In this document: one piece after another, positions 2,827 to 5,468 of the stretch
How the letters are laid out: each line of letters begins with the position of its first letter
How positions within the stretch are numbered: position 1 is the first letter of the stretch
Origin: Ignavibacteriales bacterium
GTDB taxonomy: Bacteria > Bacteroidota > Ignavibacteria > Ignavibacteriales > Ignavibacteriaceae
Direction of reading: 5' to 3'
Assembly: GCA_020061465.1 (NCBI GenBank)
Contig: JAGUYG010000018.1
Coordinates: forward strand, 1-33,457
DNA length: 33,457 nucleotides
Position numbers and translations under genes: made by a program
Notes under the pieces: generated by a model
What the model was told of the DNA's origin: nothing
The model's input: the letters and a program-made list of their open reading frames with translations, nothing else
Database searches by the model: none

Positions 2827-3840
2827 TTAATTCAGTATTTCGGTAATGAGAATAGTAAGAATTGTCTTGTGGTCGGCAGAGGTAGTTTTGACAGAAAAAT
2901 CTGCTTTGAGCAGCGCTTGTGCGGCACGATAAATTTTTTCATCGGAAAAAATTTTTCTTGCCTCTCGATATTGTCTATAATAATAAGGGTGTGTGCCGAC
3001 AAACTTTGCCGCGGCAGCATCGGGTAATTTCTTCTCGTTCATCTCGTTAACTCTTAGCAGTCCTGTAAAAAACCGTGTAAGCATGTGGACGATATAAGTC
3101 ATCTCAGAGCCGTTATCGAGAAGGTTAAATGCTATTTTAAGCGCCTCGGCTTTGTTTTGAACGGCAAGTGAATTTTGCAAATCAAAAATCGTATATTCTT
3201 TGAGGGCAGTTGACAATTCCTTAATAATATCGTAAGTAATTTCGTTTTTACTGCCGATAAAAGTAAAAATTTTTTCAAGCTGACTTTCAAGCATACTTCT
3301 ATTTTCACCCGATATTTCTGCCAATAGCTGAGCATTTTCTGCGGAGAGCAGCTTGTTATTTGATTCCGCATAATCTATAAGCCATTTTATTAAGCTTTCA
3401 CCTTTCAATTCCTTTGCTTCAAATATGAAATTATTTTTTTGGAGCAATGCGTATGGTTCTGCCGTTAAGTTAGAAATCTTTCCCTGGTGCAGCAGTGCAA
3501 CAACCGAAAATTCCGCAGGAGACTCTATGTAGGGAATTAAAGCTTGTTTGTCCTTTACCTTTTCAAATTCTTTACAAACAATCAGCTTTTTTTCCGAACC
3601 AAACGGAAAAGAAGATGCGAATTGAACTATCTGTGAAGCGCTTGTATCTTCACCGTAAAATGTTTCGTTGTCAAACTCGGATACTAAAAACGGCTTTACC
3701 GCATTTTGAAGCACAGTTAGAGCATGATTCATGCTGTAAGAATCTTCCCCGAAGAAATAATAGATTGGAAGCAGCTTTCCCTGCCGTATTTTTTTAATTG
3801 CTTCGGTAACGGATGAAATATGTGGTTTACTCTTCGCCAT
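2827..3840 (-). CDS. holA: DNA polymerase III subunit delta
   Basis: This 337-residue protein is the clamp-loader delta subunit, which opens the beta sliding clamp and works in the cytoplasm with gamma/tau and delta-prime. The N-terminal AAA-like domain begins with LPIYYFFGEDSY at about 24-35, the family's degenerate P-loop region without a full Walker A. The middle shows the helical lid with the conserved ENRSMLESQLEKI stretch, and the C-terminal collar domain (about 210-337) includes HPYYYRQYREA. Length matches the family. The ATG lies inside the last codons of the preceding 40-residue gene, a 14-base overlap, so translation is probably coupled to the transporter genes upstream. Confidence 0.93.
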   Translation of the reverse strand: MAKSKPHISSVTEAIKKIRQGKLLPIYYFFGEDSYSMNHALTVLQNAVKPFLVSEFDNETFYGEDTSASQIVQFASSFPFGSEKKLIVCKEFEKVKDKQALIPYIESPAEFSVVALLHQGKISNLTAEPYALLQKNNFIFEAKELKGESLIKWLIDYAESNNKLLSAENAQLLAEISGENRSMLESQLEKIFTFIGSKNEITYDIIKELSTALKEYTIFDLQNSLAVQNKAEALKIAFNLLDNGSEMTYIVHMLTRFFTGLLRVNEMNEKKLPDAAAAKFVGTHPYYYRQYREARKIFSDEKIYRAAQALLKADFSVKTTSADHKTILTILITEILN

Positions 3841-3949
3841 TCATCAACTTCTTTTTCTCATACTTAAGTGCTCTGATAAGAAAAAATACAAGCCCTCCCC
3901 AAACTAAACCGAGTACAAATGCGGCGGTTATTATTATTGTAATATTCAT
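3827..3949 (-). CDS. MetS-like small membrane subunit of the NSS transporter (40 aa)
   Basis: A 40-residue reading frame lies exactly between the NSS transporter and holA. It starts with ATG one base after the transporter's TGA and ends inside holA. It encodes one membrane helix (about 4-26) with the core LVWGGLVFFLIR, then a basic tail (KYEKKKLMNGEE). The known MetS small subunits encoded beside NSS transporters such as Corynebacterium MetP are similarly short single-span proteins with a W-G-G-L-V core near the membrane centre. That resemblance plus the gene order support a small accessory subunit of the transporter. There is little ribosome-site signal, so it is probably translated by coupling. 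The match was made by eye and not by a search. Confidence 0.72.
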   Translation of the reverse strand: MNITIIITAAFVLGLVWGGLVFFLIRALKYEKKKLMNGEE

Positions 3950-3950
3950 A

Positions 3951-5468
3951 TCAATTTCTTAGAGTATTATCCACAATTTTTTTATTTAACAAAATAAATA
4001 CGAAAATCGCTATTCCCCATTGCAACAGACATGTGCCCAAATTCTCAGCATGAAAAGGATTCCACCACTCAGGGTCCCATGATATCGAAGATATCAGCCA
4101 CCATGAAATTAAAAATACTGCTTGTATGGGCACCAACACTCCGATTACGTAATTATACCACTTCCCGATTTTCACATCGCTGCCATAGCCATTAATTATT
4201 TCAGTCCGGAATTTATTCACACCAAATTTGATGATGGAAAAGGAAATGAATGCACCGCTTAAAATTAGTCCAACCCCCCAAACCCAATCCTGGTTAGAGA
4301 AAAAGTTCATATTGAGTGCAGATGGAATTCCGAACACAAAGCCTGCAGCGGCTACAATAATAATAGCTTTTCTTCTTTTTAATCCAAAATCAATTAATGT
4401 TCTTGTAGATAATTCGACCATCGATAAAAGAGACGTAGTTGCGGCAAAGAAAAGAGCTAAAAAGAATATTGAAGCGAAGAAGCCGTTAACAAGGCTGCTC
4501 GTTGATAACTTTGCAAACAGCAGCGGCAGGTAGATGAAAGTCAACCCCGTATTTGCCGGACCCGACTGTGATATTTGCTGCATCGCATCGACAGAACTAA
4601 GTGCGAAGACGGTTGAGAAAATCGTTATCCCGGCAATAATTGAAACACTGTTATTACCAAATCCTATTAAAGCGGCATTCAAAGAAATATCTTCTTTTTG
4701 ACGCATGTAAGTAGCGTAAGTTAAAATTAAGCCCCAGCCTGCACCGGTATCCCAGGCGTTTTGAGTTAGTGCATTAAGCCATACTTTATAATCAAGAATT
4801 ATTTCAAGCTTGGGAGTAAAAAAATATTTTATTCCTTCTATTGCATCGGGCAGGGTAATAGCTCTTACAAACAATATCAATAAAATTATTAGAAGAGAAG
4901 GTACAAGTAACCGTGTTACCTTTTCTATTCCTTGTGTTACACCCCGATAGATTACTATCGATACAAGCGCTATCGAGATAAAATGAAAGAGCAAAGGAAG
5001 ATAGCCGGAAGAAAAACTCTGCCAGTACTCAAAATGCTGCTGTGTGTCGAACAAGCCTCCTGATACAGCGGAGAAAAAATAACGCAGGCACCAGCCTGTT
5101 ACCACCGAGTAATAGAACATAATTGCAGTAGATACCAGCACAACAAAAGCACCCATCCAGCCAAACTTATTTCCGGCTGTTTTAGAAATAGCTCCAACAG
5201 GTCCATACCGGGTTGACTTTCCGATAGCAAACTCGGCAATGATAAGCGGCACAGACCAGATGAGCAGAAAGATTACCCAAGGTATTAAAAAAGAACCGCC
5301 GCCGTTCTGAGCAACAACTCTTGAGAAGCGCCAAATATTTCCAGTGCCAACGGCAATACCTATTGTGGCAATAATCAAGGCCCATCTTGATGAGAAAAAT
5401 TCTTGTTTACCTTCAGGTTTACCTTCAGGCTGTTTCATTTTATTGATTTCATCGATACTGATTGACAC
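3951..5468 (-). CDS. Na+-dependent NSS (SLC6-like) transporter
   Basis: This 505-residue inner-membrane protein belongs to the neurotransmitter:sodium symporter family, which imports amino acids or related solutes using the sodium gradient. The signature is at the first helix: GNIWRF at 43-48 and NGGGSFLIPW at 55-64, which line the Na+ and substrate sites of LeuT-type proteins. Roughly 11-12 hydrophobic segments follow. The substrate cannot be read from the sequence; the adjacent MetS-like subunit hints at methionine/alanine-type importers. The GTG at 5468 has no clear ribosome site; an alternative ATG 10 codons in (5438) would still keep the first helix. Confidence 0.9.
   Translation of the reverse strand: MSISIDEINKMKQPEGKPEGKQEFFSSRWALIIATIGIAVGTGNIWRFSRVVAQNGGGSFLIPWVIFLLIWSVPLIIAEFAIGKSTRYGPVGAISKTAGNKFGWMGAFVVLVSTAIMFYYSVVTGWCLRYFFSAVSGGLFDTQQHFEYWQSFSSGYLPLLFHFISIALVSIVIYRGVTQGIEKVTRLLVPSLLIILLILFVRAITLPDAIEGIKYFFTPKLEIILDYKVWLNALTQNAWDTGAGWGLILTYATYMRQKEDISLNAALIGFGNNSVSIIAGITIFSTVFALSSVDAMQQISQSGPANTGLTFIYLPLLFAKLSTSSLVNGFFASIFFLALFFAATTSLLSMVELSTRTLIDFGLKRRKAIIIVAAAGFVFGIPSALNMNFFSNQDWVWGVGLILSGAFISFSIIKFGVNKFRTEIINGYGSDVKIGKWYNYVIGVLVPIQAVFLISWWLISSISWDPEWWNPFHAENLGTCLLQWGIAIFVFILLNKKIVDNTLRN

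Follow-up and report, generated by a model that had tools for sequence, protein, structure and literature searches.

A MetS-like one-helix gene follows an NSS amino-acid transporter gene in an Ignavibacteriales bacterium, and one-helix frames also accompany relatives of LeuT

LeuT of Aquifex aeolicus serves as the model, in structure and in mechanism, for the dopamine, serotonin and amino-acid transporters of humans, which belong to the NSS (SLC6) family. The cycle of LeuT has been measured on the purified single protein, and it has been studied as a one-protein system. MhsT, of the same family, has 11 helices. In the methionine/alanine importer MetPS of Corynebacterium glutamicum, MetP reportedly requires the small protein MetS. 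The corresponding NCBIfam model, NF033493 (MetS family NSS transporter small subunit), matches C. glutamicum among 14 control genomes and, above its curated cut-off, the archaea Methanocaldococcus jannaschii and Methanosarcina acetivorans; in Peptoclostridium acidaminophilum (Clostridia) a protein annotated as 'MetS family NSS transporter small subunit' is encoded 2 nt after an NSS gene. We have analysed contig JAGUYG010000018.1 of an Ignavibacteriales bacterium (Bacteroidota; Ignavibacteria; assembly GCA_020061465.1), whose 33,457 nucleotides are called the window below, and in it a 40-codon frame between an NSS gene and holA that an earlier note, made from the letters alone, had read as a MetS-like microprotein. 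This frame is a genuine gene, and very probably its one-helix product is a partner of the amino-acid transporter whose gene immediately precedes it.

The gene occupies 3827-3949 on the minus strand, stop codon counted in, with its ATG at 3949 and its stop codon at 3829-3827, and encodes MNITIIITAAFVLGLVWGGLVFFLIRALKYEKKKLMNGEE. As the earlier note described, the product has a single hydrophobic stretch and a W-G-G-L core: the predicted membrane helix covers residues ~3-25 (3875-3943, minus strand; read from the sequence and a hydropathy criterion), WGGL stands at residues 17-20 (3890-3901), and the C-terminal side is basic, with a tail at residues 26-36 (3842-3874). The same note had the frame sitting exactly between the transporter stop and the holA start, which does not hold, as it is interlocked with both genes. 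The NSS stop codon lies at 3951-3953, leaving a gap of 1 nt before the start at 3949, and at its 3' end the frame runs 14 nt into the start of holA (2827-3840), the gene for the delta subunit of DNA polymerase III.

A scan of genome contigs with the window NSS protein gave 35 loci. Most carry Ignavibacteria-type or Bacteroidetes titles, and one each comes from Calditrichota and KSB1. A single-helix frame of 35-46 residues follows the transporter in all 35, carrying the core motif WGG in 34 and IGG in the other (L025). In one locus (L019) it stands 486 nt from the transporter, behind an inserted open reading frame (ORF) (L019:4492-4905), putatively GxxExxY-like, and the frame is kept beside holA. 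The earlier note had proposed that its reading would fail if relatives with this gene order lacked the frame or carried frameshifts in it, and the 35 loci did not bear this out. We aligned 39 of these small proteins (alignment A1: the window, 34 of the 35 loci and 4 more genomes, with L030 omitted for its unknown bases). G18 and G19 are invariant, W17 is conserved in at least 90% of the rows, and so are A27, E31 and K34 of the basic tail. The codon pattern, examined in 22 of the 39 sequences, is that of a coding gene: the minor-base fractions at codon positions 1, 2 and 3 are 0.251, 0.131 and 0.456, the third position being the most variable, and the two alternative reading frames contain stops in 22/22 and 20/22 sequences. 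Mean pN/pS over 231 pairs is 0.37, a rough value with synonymous sites near saturation. By a criterion fixed after the families were already known, namely a single-helix small ORF at most 150 nt from the transporter stop, such a frame follows 34 of 35 transporters of the window's type (the 35th being L019); among the 223 remaining mechanical ORFs of at least 250 residues in the fetched DNA, 10 are followed by one.

The association with the transporter was surveyed in 294 genomes of the class. NSS genes of at least 267 bits (next best 190) were assigned to the window transporter's clade, here clade A, a split gene in G244 being counted once; matches to a profile built from A1 were counted at E < 1e-7, and adjacency meant a downstream position no more than 900 nt away, both genes being on one strand. 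So defined, 53 of the 55 clade-A NSS genes have a match downstream, and 53 of the 55 strong matches adjoin a clade-A gene. The other two lie at contig edges: in G222 the end of an NSS gene remains at the edge (33 residues matched; L051), and the second, in G258:C307, begins at base 36. Ten weaker class matches (E 1.9e-5 to 0.009) were left uncounted, and none of the seven that were fetched (L052-L058) adjoins an NSS match. Per genome, both genes are found in 53, only the transporter in 2, only the small gene in one genome, namely G222, and neither in 238 (phi 0.97), and cross-pairing controls with the other NSS clade give phi values of 0.25 and 0.27. Because the genomes are related, p-values from such counts are not independent probabilities, and the cross controls indicate what lineage alone yields. 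One of the transporter-only cases, L049 (G380), groups in the transporter tree with frame-less Bacteroidia transporters (fork 100/99), and the sister NSS branches without the frame are separate in that tree. The small gene follows the transporter, not holA. Frame and NSS gene stand together in L090-L092, L094 and L107, where no holA match (tblastn E <= 1e-3) was found in the 1.2-2.2 kb fetched, a search that a very divergent holA could escape; this persistence without a detected holA argues against a role in holA expression.

As for its family, NF033493 gives the window copy 22.8 bits (E 5.5e-5) and, at E <= 10, finds 38 of the 39 sequences in A1, the best of them at 4.6e-10, while Pfam PF16951 (MaAIMP_sms) matches 24 of the 39 at E <= 1 (best 1.2e-6). 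Together with a presence that tracks the NSS clade, these matches bear out the resemblance to MetS. Judged from them, the window gene is a new member of an already known MetS-like kind; we call the window copy 'MetS-like', an orthologue of members, because its own score is under the NF033493 cut-off. In a 198-genome sample of the phylum, NF033493 finds 8 genomes at E <= 0.001, 5 of them above the cut-off and the window's own genome not among them. The orthologues above it are those of G140 (38 bits), G152 (36), G031 (30.1), G070 (27.3) and G004 (25.1), with an adjoining NSS gene. The A1 profile gives 19 matches in the same sample at E <= 0.01, of which 13 adjoin an NSS match, including all 8 NF033493 genomes, and since 13 such genomes stand against 8, the curated model under-detects this branch. 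With 5 of the 198 genomes above the cut-off, the family is missed in part, which qualifies the note's expectation that such a frame would be missed. Similarly, the proposed extension of the pairing to this lineage stands for the window's class, but the family was already present beyond the actinobacteria, in the two archaea and the Clostridia record. As a separate observation, two MetS-profile matches (G018:C4:383679-383747, E 8.4e-7; G073:C1:358996-359055, E 1.7e-5) lie away from the NSS matches of their genomes.

The partner transporter is encoded at 3951-5468 on the minus strand (NSS/SLC6, PF00209 E 3.3e-58), with 12 predicted membrane helices and an AlphaFold2 model of mean pLDDT 82.7. A fold search with this model ranks LeuT structures first, at a TM-score of ~0.84. 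The model has helices at residues 437-464 and 477-493, read as transmembrane helices TM11 and TM12, the latter, its last long helix, being encoded at 3990-4040 on the same strand. Since the transporter has a TM12 of its own, the small protein would be an additional helix. We accordingly rejected the idea that it is the missing twelfth helix of a split transporter, which is also disfavoured by the short MhsT-like transporters (clade C) being the ones without a partner (0/13).

Lysine and arginine are richer on the C side of the small helix than on its N side in 39/39 A1 rows, from which, by the positive-inside rule, an N-out/C-in orientation is expected. The distance from NSS stop to small-gene start is at most 10 nt in 29 of 36 gaps, 9 of them 4-nt overlaps, and a Shine-Dalgarno-like site precedes the small gene in just 4 of the 18 sequences that were examined, with no clear one at the window copy; its translation is therefore likely to be coupled. 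In the mechanism that we propose, ribosomes would pass from the transporter gene to the small gene by coupling, the product would insert N-out/C-in, its helix would lie against the 12 helices of the transporter with the W-G-G face at the contact, and, by analogy with what is reported for MetS and MetP, it would support the stability or activity of the transporter. That the frame encodes a MetS-like one-helix small subunit of the upstream NSS transporter we regard as highly likely. What the sequences show is the frame, its conservation as a coding gene, its almost one-to-one pairing with a single NSS clade and its homology to NF033493 members; coupling, orientation, binding and any effect on transport are inferred. 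Separately, TM6 of the transporter reads AWDTGAGWG in 22 of 24 aligned clade-A sequences and AWSTGAGWG in the other 2, against FF(T/S)(L/M)S in the LeuT- and MhsT-type clades. We take the TM6 aspartate to be at the site of the sodium-1/substrate residue T254 (LeuT numbering), and given this residue the substrate or ion coupling of clade A may differ.

Several results weigh against this assignment. The window copy falls 2.2 bits short of the NF033493 cut-off of 25, scores 13.3 against a cut-off of 70 bits with NF033494 (MetS equivalog), and matches PF16951 at E 0.12, with 12.6 bits against a gathering score of 26.2. Six of the 19 A1-profile matches in the phylum sample (E 8.4e-7 to 0.009) have no adjoining NSS match, and dN/dS spans 0.12-0.74 across 25 less saturated pairs. 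No frame was found in L050, the second transporter-only case (G272, 74% complete), within the 358 nt to the contig end, and none of 9 Bacteroidia-type relatives of the window transporter, L049 from one class genome included, carries it. These absences imply that the transporter fold can exist without the small protein.

The window's own genome holds one other NSS gene, G000:C4:1211-2770, which matches Aquifex LeuT (PDB 2a65) at E 6.5e-157, with 52% identity over 512 columns. About 700 nt downstream of it (locus L040) there is a 38-residue one-helix frame, C4:3468-3581 (MGLTTEGTIFLVLAWGG...). In many relatives a one-helix frame stands directly behind the LeuT-clade gene, and these cases form two groups, B1 and B2, whose transporters were divided by eye at a score gap (507 to 580 bits). 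The partners were aligned as A2 (B1, 25 rows), A4 (B2, 21 rows) and the merged A5 (44 rows). A single-helix ORF lies at most 150 nt downstream of 22/42 B1 and 21/25 B2 transporters (B2 locus L172, whose flank is too short, being excluded) and of 0/13 of the short MhsT-like clade C. The minor-base fractions at codon positions 1, 2 and 3 again give a coding pattern (0.285, 0.234 and 0.439 for B1; 0.345, 0.231 and 0.559 for B2), the C side is the more positive in 25/25 B1 and 21/21 B2 rows, and Shine-Dalgarno-like sites precede 15 of 17 B1 and 14 of 16 B2 sequences examined. In the own-genome locus, the spacer G000:C4:2774-3467 contains no ORF of 90 or more residues on either strand; the corresponding gap in L078 is 284 nt.

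Profile comparison relates the B1 and B2 partners to each other (98% probability, E 1.6e-13). No family that would name them was found with either alignment: the best NCBIfam and Pfam matches of A2 rows are at E 0.0078 and 0.02 (the latter unrelated), and those of A4 rows are NF033493 at 5.1e-4 and an unrelated Pfam family at 0.003. NF033493 itself matches 1 of 25 A2 rows (E 0.017) and 6 of 21 A4 rows at E <= 10, the best being the 5.1e-4 just given. By sequence comparison, then, the LeuT-clade partner families are new, with no naming model in Pfam or NCBIfam, and the earlier expectation that such subunits are commoner than annotated is met by them. Comparison with A1 by hhalign (probabilities: A2 86.9%, A4 78.5%, A5 93.3%) suggests, without deciding it, a homology between the MetS-like and LeuT-clade families, single-helix proteins being ones that score alike easily. 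One-helix frames resembling B2 partners also occur as orphans in L052, L053, L054 and L056 (for example MSTSAIIMMIATWTAILGMLIYLFTKMHRKEQKKKEI in L056), where the flanking DNA fetched gave no match to an NSS gene. The last of these may be a distant partner of the B2 transporter of G330 (L127), since L127 has no neighbouring partner.

The B1 partner is often encoded away from its transporter. Class-wide genome counts were made with the A2 profile for B1 and none for B2, where A2 gives a (weak) nearby match for 8 of 26 genes; 26 of 94 partner rows weaker than 6.2e-6 were counted apart, and on the transporter side each split gene (G263, G268, G240) was represented by a single piece and a fragment in G387 was omitted. 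B1 transporter and partner occur together in 59 class genomes, the transporter alone in 4, the partner alone in 2 and neither in 229 (phi 0.94). With the 38 adjacent-pair genomes taken out, the counts are 21, 4, 2 and 229 (phi 0.86). Because the A2 rows were chosen largely for adjacency, there is some circularity in the adjacent-pair share of this association, from which the distant share is free. In the 13 of the 21 genomes that were viewed (L149-L154, L159-L164, L166, L168), no LeuT-clade ORF stands beside the distant partner, and some of the remaining distant cases could be broken pairs in fragmented assemblies. Distant partners (L149-L164) adjoin varied genes, named here by eye: a RidA-like gene in L160-L163 and an anion-transporter-like one in L157, with no common neighbour evident outside L160-L163.

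Wider sampling gave a similar picture. In a 111-genome phylum sample, transporter (E <= 1e-60) and partner (A5, E <= 1e-3) are found in the same 19 genomes, a coincidence with a chance of 9e-22 only if genomes were independent. Of these genomes, seven are from the class surveyed above, and 14 had contributed rows to A5; G011, G030, G034, G076 and G109 had not. In one set of loci examined, an adjacent partner accompanies 10 of 10 LeuT-clade genes. They include one from Acetoanaerobium noterae (Bacillota), whose LeuT-like gene, 40% identical to the copy in the window's genome, is followed by a 35-residue one-helix frame with a GGAGG site. An adjacent partner was found for 0/5 genes nearest an MhsT-like query, 0/5 of another branch and 0/4 Bacteroidia clade-A-like genes. 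In one of the ten LeuT-clade loci, L204 (G073), the partner gene directly precedes that of the transporter instead of following it.

A tree of 46 transporters places LeuT among the B1 rows (fork 97/88, with the order inside unresolved), and the B2 rows and A. noterae lie outside (99/95 and 100/99). A. noterae has a long branch and its placement is unsure; the B2 rows alone bracket LeuT. Lying inside a partner-bearing clade, LeuT leads us to expect that A. aeolicus has, or has lost, such a partner. We lean towards the proposal that transporters of the LeuT clade, A. aeolicus LeuT among them, function in the cell together with a dedicated one-helix protein of ~35-50 residues, N-out/C-in and with a basic tail. 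Such a partner would have escaped notice for want of a matching curated family and because its gene often stands at a distance from the transporter gene. No LeuT partner appears among the literature matches listed.

This proposal has its own counter-evidence. The partner is within 900 nt downstream in only 38 of 64 B1 genes; a B1 transporter occurs without a partner match in G347 (99% complete), G244, G230 and G272 (74% complete), and a partner match without a B1 transporter in G235 and G439. Two hydrophobic ORFs downstream of transporters have no profile match, one of 48 residues 259 nt downstream in L066 and one of 39 residues 203 nt downstream in L191, the latter just below the hydropathy limit. 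According to PMC10945697, alanine uptake in proteoliposomes is seen with purified LeuT by itself, so that in the LeuT clade a partner is not obligatory for the cycle.

This last result also favours another explanation: instead of being a standing subunit, the small protein would regulate the NSS transporter transiently or help to assemble it, by acting on its insertion, stability or turnover. The LeuT-clade partners encoded away from the transporter in the 21 class genomes holding both point the same way, as fixed co-synthesis would be unneeded. The near one-to-one phyletic match (phi 0.97 and 0.94) and the invariant GG of the MetS-like helix suit a tight helix-helix contact, though a helper would be compatible with both, and we consider the helper unlikely, if a serious alternative to a subunit.

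If the frame were a leader ORF with an irrelevant peptide, serving to couple holA translation to that of the NSS gene, the 14-nt overlap with the holA start would be accounted for, and in L019 the frame remains beside holA in spite of the inserted ORF. This reading does not explain why amino acids are conserved while third positions vary, nor why the frame stands beside NSS genes where no holA match was seen in the fetched flank (L090-L092, L094, L107). holA (here TIGR01128 E 4.5e-64, minus strand) is a core gene, and the frame is missing from 238 of the 239 genomes without the NSS clade; we find this explanation very improbable. Slightly less probable still is an unrelated one-helix protein placed there by chance, such as a LapA-like one (PF06305). 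LapA_dom is the best Pfam match of the window copy (E 0.018), but at 15.4 bits against a gathering score of 28, and it matches 3 of 39 orthologues at E <= 1, compared with 24 for MaAIMP_sms and, at E <= 10, 38 for NF033493. A chance open frame, conceivable for one so short and below common gene-calling lengths, is practically discounted by the 35/35 loci, the coding pattern and the background of just 10/223. We rejected these last three readings. Further downstream on the same strand we noted, by eye only, a sigma-factor-like gene (2105-2692) and a membrane-anchored anti-sigma-like gene (1430-2095).

The MetS-like small subunit that we favour for the window gene adds the window genome's class, together with a Calditrichota and a KSB1 assembly, to the places where such subunits are found, partly under the curated cut-off. 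The LeuT-clade partners, which have no curated model, are the larger point. If the proposal for them is true, one-helix partners would be no peculiarity of actinobacteria but a feature general to several branches of 12-helix NSS transporters, and a conserved partner helix in the relatives of LeuT would be a missing part in the regulation or stability of that branch, to which existing LeuT assays apply. The distant copies also demonstrate that microproteins can be matched to transporters by co-occurrence profiling even when their genes are not neighbours.

Among known systems, LeuT of Aquifex aeolicus is 52% identical to the second NSS protein of the window's genome, which has a one-helix partner gene. 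MhsT (PDB 4us3) belongs to the same transporter family; the class representative of clade C matches it at E 1.3e-122, and 0/13 of that clade have a partner. In animals, the ancillary proteins ACE2 and collectrin have large outer domains. According to PMC8310414, B0AT1 (SLC6A19) and SIT1 depend on ACE2 for surface expression, B0AT1 relying for it on an ancillary membrane protein, ACE2 or collectrin. B0AT1 with ACE2 or collectrin may serve as an analogy only for an NSS transporter with a one-helix partner. As regards MetS of C. glutamicum MetPS (Trotschel et al. 2008), the window copy stays under the NF033494 equivalog threshold. With the NF033493 family the window copy shares the one helix, the WGG core (in this branch) and a gene placed directly behind an NSS gene; to this arrangement the window locus adds holA, with interlocked reading frames.
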